This document shows, piece by piece, positions 9,561-52,001 of a DNA stretch of 64,000 nt; position 1 is the stretch's first letter, and every line of letters begins with the position of its first letter. The notes under the pieces are model-generated. The model was not told the origin of the DNA, did not search any database, and saw nothing but the letters and a program-made list of their open reading frames with translations. Both the position numbers and the translations under genes were made by a program. The stretch lies in contig JAQIBS010000088.1 of assembly GCA_027858965.1 (NCBI GenBank), positions 1 through 64,000 on the forward strand. Reading direction: 5' to 3'. The DNA is from Kiritimatiellia bacterium (GTDB taxonomy: Bacteria; Verrucomicrobiota; Kiritimatiellia; RFP12; UBA1067).

Positions 9561-10934
9561 CTACTCCGCTTCACGTACAGCATACTCCCGTAACTTACGA
9601 TGTAAAGTACGACGGCTAATTCCCAATTCCAAGGCTGCGCGCGTTTTATTGCCTCTATTCTTATTAAGCACAGCCATAATCTTGCGTTCCTCGGTATCCG
9701 CAAGTGAGCCACCCCCCAGCACAGTAGCACGGCTACCGAGTGCATACCCACTGGAAGCCTCGCGTATATTTGCAGGAACATCGCGCACTGTCAGTCGCTC
9801 CCCTCTTCCGAGAACAATCATTTTCTCAATGGTATTACGCAACTCACGAACATTCCCCGGCCAGCTATATGCCTGTAGCAGACTGACTGCATCGGCGGTA
9901 ATGCCGTCAAAAATCTTACCGTTCTTCTCCGAGAATTCTTTCAGGAACCGATCAACCAGCAACGAAATATCACCATCACGCAACTTCAGGGAGGGAAGTA
10001 TAATATCAACCACATTCAAACGGAAGAAGAGATCCTCCCGGAACTTACCTTCAGCCACATACTCACGCAAATCTCTATTGGTGGCGGCGATCACACGGAT
10101 ATCGACCTCTATGGAATTCTGCCCGCCAACTCTCTCGAAGATACGCTCCTCCAAAACCCGCAGAAGCTTCACCTGAACAGAAGGGTCAATCTCGGAAACT
10201 TCATCCAGAAACAGAGTGCCGCCATCAGCCATCTCAAAACGTCCCTTGCGCAGTATTTCAGCTCCGGTGAAGGCACCCTTTTCATGTCCGAAAAGTTCAC
10301 TCTCCAGCAGTGAAGCTGAAAGAGCCGCACAGTGCACTGCCACAAAAGGGCCCTTACTGCGTGTGCTCAGACGATGAATGGCCTTAGCAACCAGTTCCTT
10401 ACCTGTTCCACTGGGACCCTGAATAAGCACGGATGCCTGCGTAGGCGCGGTTTGCTGGATTATATCAAAAACCTGTTTCATGGCAATTGACTCACCGGTA
10501 ATATTTTCCATGCCGTATTTTTCATTCAGCTGACTCTCGAGTGATACAACCTTCTGTTCCATATCCCGCGATTTGATTGCGCGGGAGATCAGCATATCAA
10601 GATGATCCAGATTAATCGGCTTTGTTAAAAAATCGTAAGCCCCCTGTTTCATCGCTTCAACCGCAATCTCAACAGATCCATAGGCTGTCAGCAAAATACA
10701 GACCGTGCTGGGATGCTGCGCATGCACACGTCTCAACAAACCAAGACCATCTACACCAGGCATCCGAAGATCGGAGAGCATCACATCAACATTTGATTCT
10801 TTTCCAAGAATCTGCAGGGCGGCCTCTGAGCTTTCCGCTACTCTGACATCATAACTACGTTGTAAAGCACGCTGCAATCCATCACGTGTATTCTTATCAT
10901 CATCAACTATTAATATAACTGGCTTGACCGACAT
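9561..10934 (-). CDS. NtrC/AtoC-type sigma-54-dependent response regulator
   Basis: 457 aa with the classical three-domain layout. The receiver (1-120) has the acidic pocket DDD at 11-13 and phospho-acceptor D55 in SDLRMPG. The AAA+ domain (about 145-370) has Walker [22 protein letters not shown] (GAFTGA loop that contacts sigma-54), Walker [13 protein letters not shown] and the [11 protein letters not shown] sensor region. A Fis-type [15 protein letters not shown], ends the protein. It activates sigma-54 promoters after phosphorylation. Its start lies one base after the histidine kinase stop, so the two form a cognate pair. Target promoters were not identified. Confidence 0.95.
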
Positions 10935-29487: not shown

Positions 29488-31335
29488 ATGAAAAATATCT
29501 ATACTTCTTTTCTCCTCAGCGTAATTATTGCGGGAGCAGCCGTTCAAATGAAGGCGGATACATATGTCTGGAGAGGCACGGTTGACTCTAATTTTGCCAA
29601 CAGCTCCAACTGGGATACAACACCTGGTCCAAGCCCATATAATGTCACTAACTTAGAGAGTCGGCTCACTGTAGCCAACGGCTCTGGCAGCCCTATCTAC
29701 TACACCACGGCAGAGGGACACACGATCTATCAAAACAGCAATAATCGTCCTCTCTTTATCGGCAGCGGTTCCGATGGTGCCATGTATATTACAGGTGGCA
29801 TATTCGAGGGACAGGCTTCAGCGGCTGGGGGTCTTTCATACAATGCAGACGGCAAACTCGTGATTGACGGCGGAACGTACATCCAGACAACCGGAACTAC
29901 AGTTTTCACCGTGAAATATGGAGATACTGGAACAGGCATGTTGACTGTGAGTAACGGATTGTTTGATGTTGGGGTTCTTATGTATGGAGGACATTCAACC
30001 TATAACACCAGCGGAAAAGGTGTGGTCAACCTGGACGGAGGCACTACCAGGGTTAGTAAAATCTACATGAAATCGAGTACACCTAATGGTGATTCTGTTA
30101 TCAATTTTAACGGTGGCATACTCGAAGCTAATAACTCTGAATCACTCTTTCTTGAGGGGTTGAAAGAGGCAAATGTGCTGGCAGGCGGTGTGCTTATCGA
30201 CACGGCAGGCTACAGCATTGGCATCAACCAGGATCTACTGAATGGGGGCGGCGACGGCGGTGTGACCAAGCGCGGTAACGGAATTCTGACACTAGGCGGA
30301 ACTAACACATTTACAGGAAATATTATCGTTGAAGGAGGCACCCTGAGAGCAGCGAACAACTCAGCTCTGGGAACCACAGACGGATCTACAACAGTAAGTA
30401 ACGGCGCCTCTTTCGAACTGAGTGGAAATATCACAATTACAAACCGATCAATTACAATAGCCGGCCGAACAAGCTCCAATTATGGTGCATTGGCTAGCGC
30501 TTCCGGGGATTGCACGTGGGCTGGCGATGTGCTGATCGATCAAAATAACACACGTATTACGGCCGGCGACAACACAACTCTGCGCATCAGCGGCGTAATA
30601 GATGATGGCCCCTCAAACCACAATGTTGAATTCCGCGGATACGGCACGGGAATAATGGTTCTAAGCGGAGAAAACACATACGGGGGCAACACGTACGTGG
30701 TTTTAGCCACCTTACGCCTGGATGGGGGCAACAATCGTCTACCGACTGGGACCAAACTATTCATCGGCAATGGTGCCAATTTAGAATACGCTACATTTGA
30801 CCTTAACGGGTATGATCAGGAGGTTGCTCTGCTCGATGATGTTGGAATCATGGACAACAGCGTGATTGACAGCGCAGGCGGCGGCACCCTGACCATAAAT
30901 GACGGTGAGAATCGAACCTTCGCGGGAGACTTCGTAGGGCCCCTGACATTAGCAAAAACAAACAGCAATGTTCTGACGCTTACCGCTGACATGCAGGCAA
31001 CAAGCTTAGCGGTTAACCAGGGTACATTGCAGGGCAGCGCTACATGGCACTGCCTATTCAACGACAGCGACACCCCGAACGGGATGACTGTAACCGGCGG
31101 CACGCTCGATATCAGCGCTATGACATTCGACTTTGACGAAAGCACACCGGTCAAATCAGGTACATATGTGATCGTGGATTACTCTGCAGGCGGTTCCCTA
31201 CTGGCCAACGCAGCTGCCCCCTTCTTTGCGGCAACTGTGGATATGCCGGATCGTAGCTCTCTCAGACATGACACAGTGGCGAAACAGATCCTGTTCTCCT
31301 ACTGGCTGGAAGGCACGCTCATACTCGTGAACTAG
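29488..31335 (+). CDS. Exported autotransporter-associated beta-strand repeat protein (615 aa)
   Basis: A signal peptide (to about residue 22, MKAD) precedes a long beta-helix-like protein. The first domain opens with TYVWRGTVDSNFANSSNWDT, a pattern that begins many large PVC surface proteins. Glycine-rich passages of the TIGR02601 type follow, for example GNGILTLGGTNTFTGNIIVEGG and TLRAANNSALGTTDGSTTV, then a second repeat near 385-410. No autotransporter barrel or PEP-CTERM is present, so export is probably through the T2SS or another route. The C-terminus ends in LEGTLILVN, similar to the ends of two other exported proteins in this window. Its role is unknown; adhesion or glycan binding is likely. 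Confidence 0.8.
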   Translation: MKNIYTSFLLSVIIAGAAVQMKADTYVWRGTVDSNFANSSNWDTTPGPSPYNVTNLESRLTVANGSGSPIYYTTAEGHTIYQNSNNRPLFIGSGSDGAMYITGGIFEGQASAAGGLSYNADGKLVIDGGTYIQTTGTTVFTVKYGDTGTGMLTVSNGLFDVGVLMYGGHSTYNTSGKGVVNLDGGTTRVSKIYMKSSTPNGDSVINFNGGILEANNSESLFLEGLKEANVLAGGVLIDTAGYSIGINQDLLNGGGDGGVTKRGNGILTLGGTNTFTGNIIVEGGTLRAANNSALGTTDGSTTVSNGASFELSGNITITNRSITIAGRTSSNYGALASASGDCTWAGDVLIDQNNTRITAGDNTTLRISGVIDDGPSNHNVEFRGYGTGIMVLSGENTYGGNTYVVLATLRLDGGNNRLPTGTKLFIGNGANLEYATFDLNGYDQEVALLDDVGIMDNSVIDSAGGGTLTINDGENRTFAGDFVGPLTLAKTNSNVLTLTADMQATSLAVNQGTLQGSATWHCLFNDSDTPNGMTVTGGTLDISAMTFDFDESTPVKSGTYVIVDYSAGGSLLANAAAPFFAATVDMPDRSSLRHDTVAKQILFSYWLEGTLILVN

Positions 31336-41523: not shown

Positions 41524-41645
41524 GATTGATTATGGCACCATGTGGTGGTGCTATTGAAAACATAAATTACTAATGGTCAGTTAGCTGTACTCAAACATAA
41601 ATACAGAGTTGTTTTCTGGCTAAAACGAAAAGGACGGGACGTGTG

Positions 41646-44600
41646 ATGAACAGACAGCTACTAGGATTAGTATCGTTACTCGCGACTGCGAGTGCCTTTG
41701 GGACCAACTGGACCGGAGGAGGGAGCGACACCCTCTTCAGCAACGGTGACAACTGGGACGGCGCCGTGCCGCTCCAAGGAGAATCGAGCACATTCTCCAT
41801 AGCGGGGCCCTATGCGGTGACCTTCCCTGCCGAAGGGTATACAGACAAGAGTGTGACCGAGGTTTCGATCTCATCTGGGATCGTCTCATTTGACACGCTC
41901 GGAACCTGGTGGCTGAAACCGGCCGTTTCGACCTGGGGCAATCCGACCTTCCGGCTAAATGGAGGCGGTCACACCTTTAACATTGAGAGTGTGAATAATG
42001 CAAAACCCCAGATGCTGATGTCCAATGCGCTTTTTACGGCAGCTACCTACGGAGGGGTTGTGACCAACACACTGCATTCCGGACTTCTTAACTTTTATGA
42101 TCCTGACGGAACACCCAGTGATAATAAAGTCGTTATCGGCCATAACGACTCGCTTGATCAGACCCTGATATTGAAAGAGGGCAGCTCGAGTCGCTGGAAT
42201 GTTCTTGAGTTCAGGGCCAAGGGTCCGCGAAACCTAATTCGTATTGAAGGCGGCACCCACGAGGTGTTCAACGTGCTTGATATCGCCAACCAGAATAAGG
42301 CGGGCCGCACCGGCACCGTGTACATCGCCGGCGGTGAGCTGATCACGCACTACTACAGCCATATAGGCGCCAATAAGAGCCAGCTCGGCCAGGTCATCAT
42401 CGCGACGAACGGGCTTTGGACGGCGAACCAGACACCGGAGATTGGCGGTACCGGCGTGGGTGAGGTTAATCTGGTCGGAGGGACACTCGCCATGGGCCCC
42501 GACAACATCGACCTCTCCGTCGGACACAACAACGGCGGCACCGGCACCGTCAACGTTATCAGCGGGAACCTGAATGCAAACAACTACCAGACACTGGTCG
42601 GCAACGGTTCCACGGCGGTCGGTCACTTTAACGTCTCCGGCGGTAACGTGGCCACCAAGTACTGCCACGTCGCCAAAAACTCCGGCAGCACCGGCACTGT
42701 CACGATGACCGGAGGATCCTGGATCAACTCAGGAAATGGTCAGATGGGTAGCAGCGGCGTAGCGACGATGACCGTCTCAGGCGGCTCGCTGACATGGAAC
42801 GACTGGCTGATGGTTGGTGCCGGGGCGAGTTCCGTCGGGCATCTGACGCTGGCAGGCGGCACCACCCAGTTCAGCGACATCATGCCGGGATTCTACGGCG
42901 GCGACGGCACCGTTGACGTAACCGGAGGCAATCATCGCTATAACCGCATCCGCCTGGGAGGGGCAACATCCTGCGTGCGCAGTCTGTTTCGAATCAGCGG
43001 TGGAACAAACAGTTTTTACGGCGGTGATGGCATCACTGTCGGTGCGCAGAGTCAGGGCGAACTGATCATCAGCGGGGGCGAGAATGATTCAACCTCGATT
43101 CGCCTTGGACAATCCGCCAGTACAGATGCCAAACTTTCATCTTTGACCGTCAGTGGCGGTGTTACCCGTCTGGGTACCATCAACGTGGCTGATAACCTTA
43201 ACAACTCAGGTCTGCTGATTTTAAATGGCGGAGTATTTGCTGCCAATCAGATCCGTGGCTGGGCAGGTGCAGCAGTCAAAGGCGGTAATGGGCAAGCTCT
43301 GCTGGAAGCTGATGGCGGCACGGCCAGAGCGCGGCAGGCGAATACCGCTTTTATAACAGATTTGGATTCCGCCACACTGGGGGTCAACGGTCTTACAATT
43401 GATACCGCCGGATTTGATGTGACCATTCCTCAGATTTTCTCCAACCAGACCGCTGTTTCCGGTCTGCTGATCAAGACCGGTGAGGGCACGCTGACGCTTT
43501 CGGGCGCGAACAAGCATGACACCACGGTAGCTGCGGGCGGCACGCTGACACTCTCCGCCAATGATCGCCTGGACGGTTCCCTCGTGGTAACCAACAACGG
43601 CACTTTCTCCACTGTCGGCACGGTCGACACCGTCACGCTGCAAACGCTGACCGTCGGCGATGCTGAAAAAACCGGCTGGCTGGCTGTTGACAATGCGGAT
43701 ACGATCATCATTACGGACGCGTCCGGACTCTCGATGCCCTTTGCCAAACTGATCGTTTCCTCACCCGCTACCGATGGCGCCTATACGCTCTTCACCTGCG
43801 CAGGCAACGTGCCGGCCAGCGTCCTGCAGAACACCGAGGTCGGCAATCCGGTCGTTGGAAAGGTCTATACGCTCTCGGCTGTCTACACTGCGGGACCGGA
43901 CACCACGGATCTGATTCTCACCATCCAGGACAAATCCTCCTTTGTAATCACCGAGCGTGCCTGGGACGGTGATAGCGGCAGCGCGTGGAACACAGCCGGC
44001 AACTGGACCGGCGACATTGTGCCGCAGGCCGGCGAGGCGGCGGTCTTACCGCAAGCCCCGGTCAATAAGAGCATCACCACCACGGCAGGAGCGACCGCCG
44101 GAGTGTTGCAGTTCAATGCGATGTCCAGCTATACACTGGGCGGCACAGACGCACTGACACTCGACAACGATGGCCGTTTCGGCGAAATCAATGCGACAGC
44201 TGGTGTCCATGAGGTAAGCGCACCGCTGGCGCTTCCGCGCACCCTGCTGGCCGTGTCCGATGATGGCGCATCCGTCACCCTTTCAGGAGCTGTCACTGGC
44301 AACGGAGGCATCACAAAATCCGGTTCCGGTCAACTCACGCTCTCTGCGCCCAATACATTCAGAGGTATCACAACCGTCAATGGCGGCAGACTGACCCTTG
44401 CTGACAGCGACTCTTTTGGTGATGCCACATCTGACCGTGAAAACCTCGTGTTGCAATCCGGCACTCTGCAATACAGCGGCAGCACCGCTTCCCAAGTTCG
44501 CGGCTTCACCCTCGCTGCCGACACCCCCACCAACGCGGTTATCCTTGATGTTCAGGATAACCTGATCCTCTCCGGCCAGCCCTGGGCCAATGCCGGTGCG

Positions 44601-46148
44601 CTGATCAAACGTGGACCGGGAGTGTTTGAACTTTCCGTCTCCGGCACTGCCAACAAACTTTCGGTCGGCAACGGCATGGCGTTCAACAACACGGTTCAAA
44701 ATACGGATCTCATCTTCCCTGACAACGGTGATTCTCCAACGGATGGTTACACCGGTTTCACGGTGGCAGAGGGAATCTTCCGAGTGACCGGCACAGCGGA
44801 TTCCGTCACACGCATCGAAAATGTCGCAACAATCGGCGCCCGCACCACCCAGGGCACGGTAAGCCCTGCGCTTGAGATTGACGGCGGCACAGTCTATCTG
44901 GGCGGTGGCAGCATGCACTCCTACATCGGTGCGTACACCGCTGCCGGTTCAGTAATGACCAACCCGGCCCTGCGCGTCACCGGTGGAGCCACGCTCCATG
45001 CAAATTCACTGCACTTCGGCTACGGGGCATCGACACCGGTTTCACCTGAATTTCTAGTTGACGATGCCAATGCTGATATCTACTGGACAGTCGAGCTAGC
45101 TAATCAGAGCAGCGGCACAAGTTTCACCACCATCAGGAATGGCGGAGTGCTCTCTACCACAGCCAATGATATCATTGCTCATAACCGCTTCAACCTGCTG
45201 ATCGAGGGCGGCACCGTAACGGTCCTGAACCCGAGCAGCCGGTTCAGCTTCTACGGCAACGCGGGCGGCACGATCGAGTTGACCAACAATGGCAGACTTG
45301 CCGTACCGAAAATCAACATGGAGAGCAGTCAAGGTGTGACACTGGCCTTCGACAACGGCACCTACCAGCCCACAATCGACGGCATGCTGATCTTCCGCAA
45401 TGATGATAAGCACACCGTCGACATCCGCAGCGGAGGCGCCGTGTTCGAAGTCAACGCCGGAGTAACCTATACCGTAGCACGTCCGTTAACCGGTATCGGC
45501 GGAGTAACCAAAACCGGCACAGGTACATTAATCTACAGTGAGACACTGCAGGATAATGGAGCTACCTCTAACAAGACCGATCTGATCGCCGGCAACTACG
45601 AAGGTCCAACTCTCGTCTCTGCCGGAACACTGATTGTCAGCAACAGCACCATCCGCACAGATGCTCAGGTGACAGTTTCAGCAGGAGCCACGCTCGACCT
45701 GAGCGACAGCAACGTTATGTTGGACACACTTGCAGGTAATGGAACTGTTAACAGCGGAACGCTCTCGGCCAACACCATCTCACCGGGGATGAGCGCTGAT
45801 GACATCGGCGCACTGACAGTTGATTCACTGGCCTTTAACAGCGACTCTTTCATCTGTGATTTAACTCAGGAGGAGGATGGCAACGTTACAACCAACGACA
45901 CCATCACTGTGACCGGTACACTCACCGGTGCAGGCTTGGTTGACTTCGGGCGCACATCCATTGATGCAATGACCCTCCCCTGCACCGTTGATATTATGTA
46001 CTACAATCCTGTCAACGGCACCCCTGTTGTTTCAGGATGGAAGGTCCACAACACAGGAGTAAACGCCAGCTCCGGCGAATTCACGGCCGTCGATGGTATT
46101 ATCAGCGTCACCGTAGGTTATGGCGGAACTGTCCTCATGATCCAATAA
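41646..46148 (+). CDS. Giant exported autotransporter-associated beta-strand repeat protein (1500 aa)
   Basis: A signal peptide (LLGLVSLLATASAFG) is followed by the GGGSDTLFSNGDNWDGAVP opening seen in many PVC surface proteins. A second such opening occurs in the middle (RAWDGDSGSAWNTAGNWTGDIVPQ, about 775). Repeats of the form GGTGTVNVISG, HLTLAGGTTQF and GNGGITKSGSGQLTLSAPNTFRGITTVNGG (TIGR02601 type) fill most of the length and predict a long beta-helix. No autotransporter barrel is visible. The protein ends in GYGGTVLMIQ, close to the ends of the 615-aa and 439-aa exported proteins. The start at 41646 is an ATG directly after an in-frame GTG. Confidence 0.85.
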   Translation: MNRQLLGLVSLLATASAFGTNWTGGGSDTLFSNGDNWDGAVPLQGESSTFSIAGPYAVTFPAEGYTDKSVTEVSISSGIVSFDTLGTWWLKPAVSTWGNPTFRLNGGGHTFNIESVNNAKPQMLMSNALFTAATYGGVVTNTLHSGLLNFYDPDGTPSDNKVVIGHNDSLDQTLILKEGSSSRWNVLEFRAKGPRNLIRIEGGTHEVFNVLDIANQNKAGRTGTVYIAGGELITHYYSHIGANKSQLGQVIIATNGLWTANQTPEIGGTGVGEVNLVGGTLAMGPDNIDLSVGHNNGGTGTVNVISGNLNANNYQTLVGNGSTAVGHFNVSGGNVATKYCHVAKNSGSTGTVTMTGGSWINSGNGQMGSSGVATMTVSGGSLTWNDWLMVGAGASSVGHLTLAGGTTQFSDIMPGFYGGDGTVDVTGGNHRYNRIRLGGATSCVRSLFRISGGTNSFYGGDGITVGAQSQGELIISGGENDSTSIRLGQSASTDAKLSSLTVSGGVTRLGTINVADNLNNSGLLILNGGVFAANQIRGWAGAAVKGGNGQALLEADGGTARARQANTAFITDLDSATLGVNGLTIDTAGFDVTIPQIFSNQTAVSGLLIKTGEGTLTLSGANKHDTTVAAGGTLTLSANDRLDGSLVVTNNGTFSTVGTVDTVTLQTLTVGDAEKTGWLAVDNADTIIITDASGLSMPFAKLIVSSPATDGAYTLFTCAGNVPASVLQNTEVGNPVVGKVYTLSAVYTAGPDTTDLILTIQDKSSFVITERAWDGDSGSAWNTAGNWTGDIVPQAGEAAVLPQAPVNKSITTTAGATAGVLQFNAMSSYTLGGTDALTLDNDGRFGEINATAGVHEVSAPLALPRTLLAVSDDGASVTLSGAVTGNGGITKSGSGQLTLSAPNTFRGITTVNGGRLTLADSDSFGDATSDRENLVLQSGTLQYSGSTASQVRGFTLAADTPTNAVILDVQDNLILSGQPWANAGALIKRGPGVFELSVSGTANKLSVGNGMAFNNTVQNTDLIFPDNGDSPTDGYTGFTVAEGIFRVTGTADSVTRIENVATIGARTTQGTVSPALEIDGGTVYLGGGSMHSYIGAYTAAGSVMTNPALRVTGGATLHANSLHFGYGASTPVSPEFLVDDANADIYWTVELANQSSGTSFTTIRNGGVLSTTANDIIAHNRFNLLIEGGTVTVLNPSSRFSFYGNAGGTIELTNNGRLAVPKINMESSQGVTLAFDNGTYQPTIDGMLIFRNDDKHTVDIRSGGAVFEVNAGVTYTVARPLTGIGGVTKTGTGTLIYSETLQDNGATSNKTDLIAGNYEGPTLVSAGTLIVSNSTIRTDAQVTVSAGATLDLSDSNVMLDTLAGNGTVNSGTLSANTISPGMSADDIGALTVDSLAFNSDSFICDLTQEEDGNVTTNDTITVTGTLTGAGLVDFGRTSIDAMTLPCTVDIMYYNPVNGTPVVSGWKVHNTGVNASSGEFTAVDGIISVTVGYGGTVLMIQ

Positions 46149-46304: not shown

Positions 46305-47324
46305 TCAAACAGTTTGTCTCAGTCCAAGAAGGAAATTCTTCACACAGTCTCCTAAAACATCAATATTGTAGCCACCTTCCTGGCATACTAATGTGGGTAT
46401 TGCCAGCGACTGAAACAGTTGACCCATTACAAAGTAATCTTCCGTGCGAAGCTTGAAGCCACCAATAGGGTCCGCCTCATGCGTATCGAAACCTGCGGCA
46501 ATAATAAGATATGCAGGATTAAACTCACGGATTTTATTAAGTATGTGATCTAAAGCCTGGCTGTATTGTTCTAATTGCGTACCCTTGGGCAAAGGTTCAT
46601 TATGATTTGTACCAATCGCCTGACCTTTACCTTTTTCGTCGGCATAGCCCCAGAAGTAGGGGTATTCATCTTCAGGATCACCATGAATAGATGCCGTCAA
46701 TACAGACTTCATATCATCAAAAAACTCCTGTGTTCCATTTCCATGATGATAATCTATATCGACTATCGCTACTCGACCTTCAGGTAATAAATACTCGGCC
46801 GCAGTCGCGACATTATTAAAGTAGCAATAACCGCCAAACACACGGGGCCCTGCATGATGTCCGGAGGGTCGGCACAGGGCATAGACTGTTTTTTCATGGC
46901 CATCGCGGATTAATTCAGCGCCGGTTAATGCCGTTTCAGCAGAGGCACGTGCAACTTCATAGGTCTTTCTTTTAATGGGCGTAACGGCATCGGTACACCA
47001 TATCCCTCCCCAGAGTGGCGAATCAGATCTTTTTCTGCGATGGGCACCCTCGCCAGGGAAAAGATCAGGATAAAACTCCTCCTCATCGTTTGGCAAACTT
47101 AATGATGTATTCCTGATATAATCGTGATAGGGGTGGAGTCGGGTGATTAGTCTTTCAGGAAAGGGCTTTGCTGTAAGAAATTCAAATCGTTCATCGGCGT
47201 GAAGGGATTTCTTAATAGCTTCAACGCGTTGGGGCGTATCTTTTACTTCGTACGTGTCCGGTCCAAGTTGATACTTCCAATATGGATTGTGCTGACTGTC
47301 GTTATATTTCTCAATTACTTTCAT
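46305..47324 (-). CDS. Acetylpolyamine amidohydrolase-like (HDAC superfamily) deacetylase
   Basis: 339 aa, with the arginase/deacetylase fold of histone deacetylases and AphA-type acetylpolyamine amidohydrolases. In numbering from the longer frame: the catalytic tandem histidines are H161-H162 in RPSGHHAG; zinc ligands are D196 and H198 in VDIDYHHGNG and D285 in GFDTHEADP; the transition-state Tyr is Y324 in EGGYN. The substrate loop SPLWGGIWCTDAVTPI and the FGGYCYFNN segment fit AphA-like enzymes better than protein deacetylases. The start at 47324 has a GGAAG SD; an upstream ATG at 47339 does not. It overlaps the end of the ATP-grasp/P1 fusion by 14 bases, so the two are translationally coupled. 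Its substrate may be an acylated polyamine. Confidence 0.88.
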   Translation of the reverse strand: MKVIEKYNDSQHNPYWKYQLGPDTYEVKDTPQRVEAIKKSLHADERFEFLTAKPFPERLITRLHPYHDYIRNTSLSLPNDEEEFYPDLFPGEGAHRRKRSDSPLWGGIWCTDAVTPIKRKTYEVARASAETALTGAELIRDGHEKTVYALCRPSGHHAGPRVFGGYCYFNNVATAAEYLLPEGRVAIVDIDYHHGNGTQEFFDDMKSVLTASIHGDPEDEYPYFWGYADEKGKGQAIGTNHNEPLPKGTQLEQYSQALDHILNKIREFNPAYLIIAAGFDTHEADPIGGFKLRTEDYFVMGQLFQSLAIPTLVCQEGGYNIDVLGDCVKNFLLGLRQTV

Positions 47325-49467
47325 GGATTGTTCTTCCATTTTTCAATAGTTCGATAATGCGTTGGTGTGGAACTGGCGGACACCAGCGTTGCTCACGTCC
47401 ATTCATTCCATTAGAACAGCAAATTGCATTCAAAACGGCCTCTTCGGTTGCTTCGATCACAGCTTCATAAACCAGGTTTATATGAGAATCGGAAATACAT
47501 TTTAAAGTTAAAAGCTTACTGCTGGTGGTGGGTTGCCGAGGCTTACGGTTACCAGTACTGAAAGCAATTATGATTTCACCACTGGTTGAGGCAGCATAAG
47601 AACCTGTTCGGCCAAGACCAAGCGCAGCCCGTTTGGCCACACGATTAAGTTGGCTGGTAATGAGTGGGAGATCAGTGGCAACCACAACGATGATTGATCC
47701 CTCTGACACCCCCCGACGTCCTGTCGGATCGGATTCCTCGTTCAGTTGTCTGCCAACAACGGCTCCATCTACAGTAAGATTATGCATCTTCCCGAAGTTT
47801 GAAAGCACAAGCACTCCAACGGTAAATGCATCGTTTTCTGAAAGGTCTAATATTCGGGAAGAAGTACCTATTCCACCGGCAAAGTCAAAAGTTGTCATTC
47901 CTGTACCAGCCCCAACTGAGCCTTGCATTACCGGTCCGGATACCGCCGCCTTGATAGCCTTGATGGTGTCTTGTGCTGAACAGGTTCCAACTCTTATATC
48001 ATTTAGAAAAGAGTCGTCGGCTTCGCCAACTACAGGTAGAACCACATCGGTTTCGGTTCCAAGAAGAGGGTACTTTTTAATCATCTGGTTGACAACGCCA
48101 TCATGTACCCGGCCAATTGAATGGGAATTTGTGAGAAGAATTGGAGTTTCCAGCCAACCTGTTTCCATAACCTGGGTAAGTCCAGCCATCTCTCCAACAC
48201 CGTTGAGGATAAAGCCACCGGCGACAATCCGATTGGCATAAGCCTGTCCAGCGGGCATAATGGCTGTAACACCAGTACGTATGCAACTGACCCCACTCCC
48301 TCCAGGAAGGGGAACACCATCTTCTATCCTAGAAAAGTGGCCCACACGAACGCCCTTAATATCTGTAATCGCATTATAAATTCCCGGGCGCATCCGTCCA
48401 ATCTGGATCCCCAGTTCTCTGGCAGTAGGTCGTGAGACACCTGATGTAATTTCACCGTTGTTGGGCTTCTTCACCGATCTGGTCGCCAAGCCGTATCGGC
48501 GAGCGGCAGAGCGAATGATCAACCGCATAATATCCCGGGGTTCGAGTCCACGCGATTTGGCCGCCATGATAAGAGATGCATTTGGATGAAGACTTGGCAA
48601 CGGATTAAGTTCAATAAAATAAGGTTTCCCGTTTGTATGTAATCGGATATCCACCCGGCCAAAATCAGGGCAGGACATGATATCGAAAACCGCACGGGCC
48701 ATTTTAACAACGGCTGTTTTCTCCTGGGAGTTAAGACTGGCAGGACAAACAACATTAACTGATTTTGCAGCTTCTCCTCCCTGTTTCATGTCGTAATCAT
48801 ATACATTGTATTTGCCATCAATCTTGTCCATGTCAAAAGTGTGTTCAACGATATCAAGTAATTTACCAGGAAAGCTTTCAAGGAAGGGAACACTAAGTTC
48901 TCGGCCGCCTATAAATTCCTCAACAACAAGACCTGAGGGATAATGCCTTAATAATTTGTTTATTCTTGCCTGGGCCTGATCATGTGATTCAACAACTGAA
49001 TCCTGTGTAATGCCTTTGCTTGACCCCTCAGAATTCGGCTTGATTATGAGGGGATATTGTAAATTACCGGGAAGCTTTTTTTCCTTCTCTGTAATCAAAA
49101 CACCTTTAGGGATGTTGATTCCGTGCGATGCCAAGACAGTTTTAGCAAGATGCTTATCAAGATTGAGATGAAGCAGTGATGCGTTTCCGCCAATGAAAGG
49201 AATGCCCATCTGCTCGTACAACCCGGGATAGAATGCCTCACGGGAACTGCCGATCGTACCCTCTGCCAGATTGAATATGAGATCAGGTTCACTTTCGATA
49301 AGGCGATCAATCACATCATTTGGTTTACCCGAAACCTCAACTTCCGTAACTTTATGGTGAAGACTGTTAATAGCACCGGATATCCGGCTGATGTCCGCCT
49401 TTGTGAGGAGTTCCGCAGTAGCTTCCGTATCATCCCTTCGAAGATTATATGCAATTGTAATTCTCAT
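47311..49467 (-). CDS. ATP-grasp ligase fused to a DmpA/P1-family peptidase
   Basis: 718 aa with two enzyme domains. Residues 1 to about 330 form a D-Ala-D-Ala-ligase-like ATP-grasp module: FNLAEGTIGSSREAFYPGLYEQMGIPFIGG, LIIKPNSEGSSKGI (ATP lysine and Gly-rich loop) and FGRVDIRLHTNGKPYFIELNPLPSLHP (metal-binding Asp, Glu and Asn). From about 345 to 718 is a P1 (DmpA/BapA) peptidase: GVRVGHFS, GGFILNGVGEMAGL, NSHSIGRVHDGV, GSVGAGTGM, and EGSIIVVVATDLPL. In that family the chain self-cleaves at Gly-Ser; here that is G590/S591, releasing a 128-residue beta chain, as in DmpA. A ligase and an amide hydrolase in one protein recall bifunctional glutathionylspermidine synthetase/amidase, which is unrelated in sequence. 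It overlaps the amidohydrolase. Confidence 0.88.
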   Translation of the reverse strand: MRITIAYNLRRDDTEATAELLTKADISRISGAINSLHHKVTEVEVSGKPNDVIDRLIESEPDLIFNLAEGTIGSSREAFYPGLYEQMGIPFIGGNASLLHLNLDKHLAKTVLASHGINIPKGVLITEKEKKLPGNLQYPLIIKPNSEGSSKGITQDSVVESHDQAQARINKLLRHYPSGLVVEEFIGGRELSVPFLESFPGKLLDIVEHTFDMDKIDGKYNVYDYDMKQGGEAAKSVNVVCPASLNSQEKTAVVKMARAVFDIMSCPDFGRVDIRLHTNGKPYFIELNPLPSLHPNASLIMAAKSRGLEPRDIMRLIIRSAARRYGLATRSVKKPNNGEITSGVSRPTARELGIQIGRMRPGIYNAITDIKGVRVGHFSRIEDGVPLPGGSGVSCIRTGVTAIMPAGQAYANRIVAGGFILNGVGEMAGLTQVMETGWLETPILLTNSHSIGRVHDGVVNQMIKKYPLLGTETDVVLPVVGEADDSFLNDIRVGTCSAQDTIKAIKAAVSGPVMQGSVGAGTGMTTFDFAGGIGTSSRILDLSENDAFTVGVLVLSNFGKMHNLTVDGAVVGRQLNEESDPTGRRGVSEGSIIVVVATDLPLITSQLNRVAKRAALGLGRTGSYAASTSGEIIIAFSTGNRKPRQPTTSSKLLTLKCISDSHINLVYEAVIEATEEAVLNAICCSNGMNGREQRWCPPVPHQRIIELLKNGRTIHESN

Positions 49468-49574
49468 TGCTCAACATCCTTTTTATTAATACTGATTCAC
49501 AGACTTAAAGTATAACACGCTGGATAATGATTTTGATATTAGTAAATATGCCGGCGGCTCCGCTTTTTATCCCT

Positions 49575-49890: not shown

Positions 49891-50403
49891 CTATTTCTGT
49901 GTGGGTGCCGCCGGTTTCGTTTTCATCATTTCTTCCATCATGGCTTGAATCTTCGGCATGACCTTAACCATCATTTTCTGACTCATCTCCATAGACCGTT
50001 TCATCAGCTCAGGTTGTTTGGCTGTGAACGCCTGCCCCGCTGGGGTTTTATAGAAGGCGATAATGCCTTTCATCTCGTCCAAGGTAAAGGTCTCGGCGTA
50101 GAGGGCGATGTACTCCTCCTTCATGTTGTCCCAACTGAGTTCCTCAAATATCATATCCATCATTTTTTCTGACTTGCTCGACACATTGGATGGCATATTT
50201 GTTTGCCCCATCGCCTGATTCATCTTCTCTTTCTGCGCCGGGATCATCTGTTTGATCATCTCAAATGATTTTCCTATAGACTCCGGCATGTTCATCACAT
50301 TCAGAAGTTCCTCTGCCATAGCACGCCGCGACACCTCCTGTGCATTGGCCCCCACCACACTTAACATTAAAGCGACCGCAATCAACGTCATCATCTTTTT
50401 CAT
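49891..50403 (-). CDS. Exported DUF2059 protein
   Basis: 170 aa. The signal peptide ends near VGANA, and the rest is helical with many Met residues. The C-terminal part has the family pattern YAETFTLDEMKGIIAFYKTPAGQAFTAKQPELMKRSM. DUF2059 proteins are small exported helical proteins of unknown function. It is followed by hairpins but no clear T run. The SD is aaggaac. Confidence 0.85.
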   Translation of the reverse strand: MKKMMTLIAVALMLSVVGANAQEVSRRAMAEELLNVMNMPESIGKSFEMIKQMIPAQKEKMNQAMGQTNMPSNVSSKSEKMMDMIFEELSWDNMKEEYIALYAETFTLDEMKGIIAFYKTPAGQAFTAKQPELMKRSMEMSQKMMVKVMPKIQAMMEEMMKTKPAAPTQK

Positions 50404-50647: not shown

Positions 50648-51097
50648 TCAGCGGCGCGGTTTACCGCGTATGCTGGATTTGTCTTGTTCGATTCTTCGTG
50701 TTTCATGCAGAACGATGGGCAGGTGCTTGGCGAAGAGGGAAAAGTCTTTGTCGGTCGTATAGATTGCAAGCTGCCTTCTCACAGCAACAGCGCAGATGAG
50801 AAAGTCTGTACTGGAACCCTGGATGCCCTTAGTGCGGCAAACATTGAAGAACTTGGCTGCCGTGACGTAGTCATCTACCATGAGCAGGATGTCTGGAAAA
50901 GCGGCAATGTGTTTCTCCAGTCTCTCGAATTGGACGGTTTCACGGAGACCGGACAGTAGTTCCTGCCTAATAGGGCCGATAATATCTACGCGATGTTCTG
51001 CAATCAGACAACGAAATTCACGCACAATGGCCGACTCAACCCTGTTCGCGCGACGGAGCGCTTCAGACCAGACACTTGTGTCAACTAGAATCCTCAT
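50648..51097 (-). CDS. vapC: VapC-type PIN-domain toxin
   Basis: 149 aa, the size of VapC toxins, which cleave tRNA, rRNA or mRNA. PIN-domain acids are visible: D6 in RILVDTSVW, E46 in GPIRQELLSG, D98 in SSTDFLICA and D116/D118 in YTTDKDF. Residues QELLSG and STDFLICAVA are typical for VapC. Its start overlaps the antitoxin stop by 4 bases (ATGA), the usual antitoxin-first arrangement. The last 15 residues are basic and variable. Confidence 0.93.
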   Translation of the reverse strand: MRILVDTSVWSEALRRANRVESAIVREFRCLIAEHRVDIIGPIRQELLSGLRETVQFERLEKHIAAFPDILLMVDDYVTAAKFFNVCRTKGIQGSSTDFLICAVAVRRQLAIYTTDKDFSLFAKHLPIVLHETRRIEQDKSSIRGKPRR

Positions 51098-51743: not shown

Positions 51744-52001
51744 TCATTTATATACATCCTTGCGATGTCCGATTTTAACACCCCATACTGTTAATTCTTC
51801 GTCTTGAATAGAGTATATTATTCGGTATTTTCCTTGGCGCACTCGATAACGCTCCAGCCCCGAAAGTTTCTCGCTCCCAGGTGGTCGGGGATCCTGTGCT
51901 AACGCAGAGATTCGTTGTATAATTCGTTGCAGATCACGCTTGGGGATCTTCTTAAAATCAAATTTAACTGATTTTCGGAAAAAGATGCTATATTTTTCCA
52001 T
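51744..52001 (-). CDS. RelE/ParE-family toxin
   Basis: 85 aa. It shows the RelE-type pattern: KSVKFDFKKIPKRDLQRIIQRISAL, then PPGSEKLSGLERYRVRQGKYRIIYSIQDEELTVWGVKIGHRKDVYK. The C-terminal block with RVRQGKYRIIY and GHRKDVY is typical of toxins that cut mRNA on the ribosome (RelE) or poison gyrase (ParE); which of the two cannot be told. It overlaps the antitoxin by 14 bases, so the two are coupled. Confidence 0.92.
   Translation of the reverse strand: MEKYSIFFRKSVKFDFKKIPKRDLQRIIQRISALAQDPRPPGSEKLSGLERYRVRQGKYRIIYSIQDEELTVWGVKIGHRKDVYK

Follow-up and report, generated by a model that had tools for sequence, protein, structure and literature searches.

The S58 β-aminopeptidases, among them BapA and DmpA, are used in biocatalysis and, to our knowledge, have no agreed natural substrate. 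Residues of the β3 class are what BapA-type enzymes cleave from the N-terminus, and β-lysine itself belongs to that class. The acetylated form of β-lysine, Nε-acetyl-β-lysine (NeABL), is a known osmolyte synthesized by way of AblA, a lysine 2,3-aminomutase, and AblB, a β-lysine N6-acetyltransferase. DmpA-type enzymes can hydrolyze and synthesize carnosine (PMC9235088). Here, we examine a gene pair from a Kiritimatiellia bacterium (GenBank assembly GCA_027858965.1, contig JAQIBS010000088.1) in which a Ddl-type ATP-grasp ligase and an S58 peptidase are fused into one protein and followed by a zinc deacetylase; "the window" will refer to the whole stretch analyzed, positions 1 to 64,000 of that contig. 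We consider it very probable that this two-gene cassette works in NeABL/β-lysine metabolism.

Architecture of the Gene Pair

The first-pass annotation of the window, made by a model from the letters alone, had read a Ddl-like ATP-grasp and a DmpA/BapA-type peptidase in one chain, with an AphA-like deacetylase as the next gene, and both assignments hold. The fusion is an intact open reading frame (ORF) encoding a protein of 77.3 kDa (calculated), in which Pfam identifies Dala_Dala_lig_C (PF07478; residues 128-318, 8.5e-29) and Peptidase_S58 (PF03576; residues 365-694, 5.6e-106), the other matches being weaker generic ATP-grasp models only. The deacetylase matches Hist_deacetyl (5.5e-67), and its best solved relatives are the acetylpolyamine amidohydrolases (APAHs) 6phr and 3q9b (Foldseek probability 1.0, TM ~0.8). 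The features of the pair are as follows:

49477..49480 (-): AGGA Shine-Dalgarno-like motif, ~9 nt ahead of the fusion start
47311..49467 (-): ATP-grasp–peptidase S58 fusion gene, 718 aa, intact ORF
48493..49467 (-): Ddl-type ATP-grasp ligase domain, residues 1-325 (Pfam and alignment)
48436..48492 (-): variable basic linker, residues 326-344, separating the two enzyme domains (alignment)
47335..48435 (-): peptidase S58 (DmpA/BapA) domain, residues 345-711 (Pfam and alignment)
47695..47700 (-): predicted self-cleavage site Gly590-Ser591, Ser591 being the expected nucleophile (homologue alignment)
47311..47324 (-): overlap of the two genes, 14 nt with the deacetylase start at 47324 (29 nt if it starts at 47339)
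46305..47324 (-): HDAC/APAH-fold zinc deacetylase gene, 339 aa, conserved start MKVIEKY

The self-cleavage site proposed in the first reading, Gly590-Ser591, is borne out: the window protein and each of the 30 full-length homologues have a Gly-Ser pair there, as befits a family S58 (P1) peptidase whose serine nucleophile opens the future β-chain; the predicted products would be ~63.4 and ~13.9 kDa (calculated). When aligned with BapA (numbering verified on the 3n2w chain), the fusion has E482, N557, S591, S629, and E631 opposite E133, N207, S250, S288, and E290, which we take to be the catalytic residues of BapA. The first four are invariant across the 30 homologues and E631 is present in at least 90% of them, so that all five positions of a BapA-type β-peptidyl aminopeptidase are filled, as judged from sequence.

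The ligase half possesses a complete ATP/Mg site (Lys, Ser-Ser, R-x-D, E-x-N), with K143, S149, S150, R271, D273, E286, and N288 invariant in the same 30 homologues. Both halves therefore look active. An identity as D-alanine–D-alanine ligase was considered and rejected: the domain scores 143.3 and 129.2 bits against NCBIfam cut-offs of 243 and 245.65, and the HGxxGEDG first-substrate segment of Ddl is absent, being replaced by AEGxxGSSREAFYPG (AEGTIGSSREAFYPG).

The deacetylase carries the His-His pair, Asp/His/Asp zinc ligands, and catalytic Tyr of the HDAC/arginase fold (H156, H157, D191, H193, D280, and Y319, all invariant among its homologues). Its longest ORF extends to 47339 (46305-47339, minus strand, 344 aa); the 14-base overlap originally reported is right for the conserved start. 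Overlaps of 14 nt (11 of 29 measured loci) and 4 nt (7 of 29) recur, and therefore translational coupling of the two genes is suggested.

Conservation and Distribution

When 84,980 species genomes were scanned, 36 loci were returned, of which 35 encode a relative (six-frame check). Thirty homologues are full length, at 62-91% identity and from ~14 phyla. The hosts belong to Pseudomonadota, Thermodesulfobacteriota (cable bacteria, Desulfobulbaceae), Bacteroidota, Ignavibacteriota, Spirochaetota, Verrucomicrobiota, Kiritimatiellota, Lentisphaerota, Neomarinimicrobiota, Riflebacteria, Acidobacteriota, Gemmatimonadota, Sumerlaeota, and Auribacterota. For many of them, record titles point to a marine, saline, or soda-lake origin. 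The deacetylase lies 3' of the fusion in 33 of 33 loci, the window included, where the DNA passes the 3' end of the fusion gene. The order ATP-grasp, S58, then HDAC is thus kept across phyla far beyond chance, and a frameshift artefact, which the first-pass annotation had named as fatal to its proposal, is ruled out, as is a chimera, by 30 full-length fusions in independent assemblies.

Two loci have the fusion frame split into two ORFs, near residue 438 in Electrothrix (L076:9986-12153) and near residue 550 in NIOZ-UU71 (L074:415-2567); these could be cases of assembly error or decay.

Among 388 genomes of the window's phylum, four others carry a full-length fusion (67-71% identity), G124 a split one, and G157 a fragment. 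Relatives of the window genome at the order and family levels yielded no fusion, only unrelated Ddl-like genes at ~30% identity, and PLSDB held no plasmid-borne fusion, only stand-alone S58 proteins at ~40%. The fusion tree interleaves phyla and, with high support, groups the window protein with Electronema and the gammaproteobacterium Psychromonas.

Association with NeABL Genes

Clustering the genes around the cassette exposed ablA and ablB, both over the NCBIfam equivalog cut-offs that we used to define them (TIGR03820 for AblA, TIGR03827 for AblB). AblB is encoded in 33 of the 35 fusion genomes, including the window's own and all ten from Bacteroidota and Ignavibacteriota, and AblA in 30. 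The background frequency of AblB is low: it is present in 22 of 388 genomes from the window's phylum and, for the order around Marinilabilia, in 6 of 149, a sample that held one fusion genome and gives a base rate only. Within the phylum sample, AblB is found in 7/7 genomes with a fusion sequence versus 15/381 without (Fisher p=7e-10, a value to be read as indicative since the genomes are partly related phylogenetically). Ectoine synthase is present in only 1 of the 35, and therefore the association is not one with halophily in general.

The conserved-neighbor tally called for by the first reading also leads to these genes. In L071 (Verrucomicrobia) the order is ablA, MscS channel, SSS symporter, ablB, fusion, deacetylase; in L082 (Kiritimatiellota) it is ablA, MscS channel, ablB, fusion, and then the end of the contig. 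In L049 and L051 ablB adjoins the cassette, and in L083 a truncated fusion remnant (10001-10339, ~residues 1-112) is directly followed by ablA and an SSS symporter gene, no second fusion sequence being found in that genome. Genes for β-lysine found together with one for a mechanosensitive channel are a signature of osmoregulation. The window genome has ablA, an SSS symporter gene, and ablB together on another contig (G000:C1). Apart from abl, mscS, sss, and the deacetylase, no neighbors recur across lineages; the other flanking genes are assorted.

Co-transfer with ablAB does not explain the association: genomes whose fusions share 89-91% identity have AblBs that are only ~50% identical. For the window and Psychromonas the values are 89% for the fusion and 50% for AblB; the cassette therefore moves separately from ablB and is retained where NeABL genes exist. 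Such retention despite separate movement is what a functional dependency predicts.

At 7 of the 10 loci examined, the nearest stand-alone ATP-grasps (~30-37% identity) have a KamA-family aminomutase next to them, and a further ATP-grasp together with a GNAT gene is often present as well. As a branch, these ligases seem linked to β-amino acids.

Two further observations concern aminomutase loci. Clusters in PVC genomes (L134, L135, L139, L140, L141, L142, and L143), with a KamA-family aminomutase, one or two Ddl-like ATP-grasps, and often a GNAT, likely represent a separate β-amino-acid peptide pathway; L141 also has a proline-racemase-like gene. In a Kiritimatiellae genome, a gene for a PurF-like class II glutamine amidotransferase (L131:9575-10975) lies directly downstream of ablA-ablB.

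Substrate of the Deacetylase

In M. ramosa APAH, the acidic residues E106 (PMC11532494) and E117 (PMC5454378) are described as recognizing polyamines. In one pairwise alignment, these positions correspond to Pro108 and Val119 of the 344-aa ORF. An invariant Asp does lie two positions ahead of the E117 site (D117 in the 344-aa ORF, D112 in 339-aa numbering), and a shifted role for it in polyamine recognition is conceivable. An invariant Arg (R161, 339-aa numbering) follows HHAG-P where APAH, in its HHAG-I-D segment, has Asp. With acids lost and a base gained, a substrate bearing a carboxylate, such as NeABL, would therefore suit the enzyme better than a polycation.

The next-closest deacetylases (40-46% identity; L154, L155, L156, and L157) have an N-terminal acetyltransferase-like region, and a protein of this type may add and remove an acetyl group in a single chain.

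Proposed Mechanism

On balance, we favor a reading in which the gene pair is a mobile accessory of the NeABL compatible-solute pathway that ligates, cuts, and deacetylates. AblA makes β-lysine and AblB acetylates it, both being encoded elsewhere in the window genome. In the scheme that we infer, the ATP-grasp domain would activate β-lysine or NeABL at its carboxylate, as an acyl phosphate, and join it to an amine, either ammonia or an amino acid; the product would be a β-lysyl dipeptide or amide. After self-cleavage at Gly590-Ser591, the S58 domain would hydrolyze the amide of the N-terminal β-residue, as β-aminopeptidases do, and so reverse the ligation, and the deacetylase would strip the ε-acetyl group from NeABL or its conjugate to return β-lysine. 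With the pair, a cell could produce, adjust, and recycle an osmolyte derived from β-lysine in step with salinity. The make-and-break logic with an adjoining deacylase, already put forward in the first-pass annotation, gains from the conserved fused order and the deacetylase that follows it; of the "peptide-polyamine or beta-peptide conjugate" suggested there, the β-peptide part comes near our best explanation and the polyamine part is not supported.

Several points weigh against this scheme. In the window genome, ablAB is on a contig other than that of the cassette, and direct adjacency to abl genes is seen in five loci only. AblB falls below the cut-off in two fusion genomes (Electronema G441 and Riflebacteria G469) and AblA in five, most of the genomes concerned being incomplete bins; the draft genome of Psychromonas G440 (L049) has ablB beside the cassette and no AblA over the cut-off. 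In the phylum sample, 15 of the 22 ablB genomes have no fusion, which is therefore not needed for NeABL synthesis. NeABL turnover has been reported as low in methanogens (PMC1224877). The AlphaFold prediction for the fusion was of low confidence (pLDDT 57) and was set aside, and the ligase pocket is not readable from it.

A bolder extension, which we offer tentatively and hold somewhat doubtful, is that the cassette marks, in many phyla, a class of compatible solute not known before, in which β-lysine or NeABL forms a dipeptide or an amide, with one self-processing protein forming and hydrolyzing the β-peptide bond and a dedicated NeABL deacetylase beside it. If the proposal is true, the S58 β-aminopeptidases gain a natural substrate. 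NeABL is an established osmolyte for which the literature searched yielded no modifying or recycling enzyme. The two-gene cassette makes both this gap and the gap in S58 substrates testable, and there are cultured hosts in Marinilabilia salmonicolor, Tangfeifania, and Psychromonas. The cassette is also an example of a metabolic add-on that crosses phyla yet stays with one host pathway.

Alternative Explanations

The cassette might serve turnover only, the S58 domain and deacetylase mainly degrading NeABL material (the cell's own or imported by SSS symporters) while the β-lysine set free goes, through the ATP-grasp, into some other storage peptide, with no new osmolyte accumulating. Hydrolysis accounts for two of the three activities, ablA is accompanied by SSS symporter genes in L071, L083, and the window's own genome, and lysine would be regained if NeABL were deacetylated and AblA then ran in reverse. 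However, an ATP-consuming ligase with all its catalytic residues is kept in the chain in 30/30 full-length homologues, which argues for real synthesis, and we regard this explanation as unlikely.

A correlation through habitat strikes us as quite improbable. Here the cassette would have an unrelated function, e.g., in D-amino-acid or cell-wall peptide metabolism, and would share with ablB only a suitability for saline, anoxic habitats. The marine, saline, or soda-lake sediments from which many hosts come, the horizontal transfer of the cassette, and the names of its domain relatives (D-Ala ligase, D-aminopeptidase) all fit such a view, but operon adjacency with ablA, ablB, and mscS in several lineages, the near absence of ectoine synthase, and KamA beside the nearest stand-alone ATP-grasps do not.

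The polyamine conjugate system of the first reading, an analogue of glutathionylspermidine synthetase/amidase (Gss) with an acetylpolyamine deacetylase, had in its favor the APAH-like fold of the deacetylase and the resemblance of a ligase-amidase fusion to Gss; the replaced acidic residues and the invariant Arg near the active-site His pair (PMC11532494, PMC5454378), together with recurrent linked genes for β-lysine and osmotic functions, make it very improbable. We find hardly credible a D-peptide or cell-wall system in which a D-Ala-D-Ala-like ligase and a D-aminopeptidase make and trim D-amino-acid peptides, for although the ligase fold is of the Ddl type and S58 includes DmpA, an L-aminopeptidase/D-amidase, the domain scores far under the D-Ala ligase cut-offs and has another segment in place of HGxxGEDG, the window genome has a separate Ddl-like gene, and no cell-wall gene recurs beside the cassette.

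Neighboring Genes in the Window

Upstream of the fusion, on the same strand, is a gene for a DUF2059 protein (49891-50403), a homologue of which recurs beside the cassette in no other genome. Genes for VapC-type (50648-51097) and ParE-type (51744-52001) toxins lie upstream of the cassette, and the window also encodes large passenger-associated-transport-repeat (PATR) proteins (41643-46148 and 29488-31335).

Comparison with Known Systems

The open-access literature that we searched held no description of an ATP-grasp/S58 fusion with a deacetylase, and no ligase, β-peptidase, or deacetylase step for NeABL. The S58 half belongs to the same family as BapA and DmpA, with all five BapA catalytic residues and a DmpA-like Gly-Ser scissile bond; the known enzymes are stand-alone, whereas here an N-terminal ATP-grasp is present in every full-length homologue. 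With the Ddl and Van ligases the fusion has in common the fold and the ATP-site residues (K143, R271-x-D273, E286-x-N288), but it falls far under the equivalog cut-offs, has another first-substrate segment, and has a peptidase attached. The deacetylase possesses the fold and catalytic zinc site of APAH, but has neither acidic polyamine-recognition residue, an invariant Arg instead, and a different genomic context.

Glutathionylspermidine synthetase/amidase is similar in outline, in that a single chain both ligates and hydrolyzes one type of bond. Its amidase domain is unrelated, however, and its ligase is arranged differently; Pfam finds neither a Gss-type ligase nor a CHAP-type amidase domain in the fusion, for which glutathione or spermidine substrates are not indicated. 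A parallel in chemistry is offered by carnosine synthase, an ATP-grasp enzyme, and the DmpA-type enzymes, where an ATP-grasp likewise makes, and an S58 enzyme cuts, a dipeptide starting with a β-amino acid; there, separate proteins act on β-alanyl-histidine, whereas here one fused protein is linked to β-lysine. NeABL biosynthesis, in turn, accompanies the cassette in nearly all fusion genomes, adjacent to it in several, and would supply the proposed substrates. The known pathway comprises synthesis only, and to this the cassette would add ligase, β-peptidase, and deacetylase steps.

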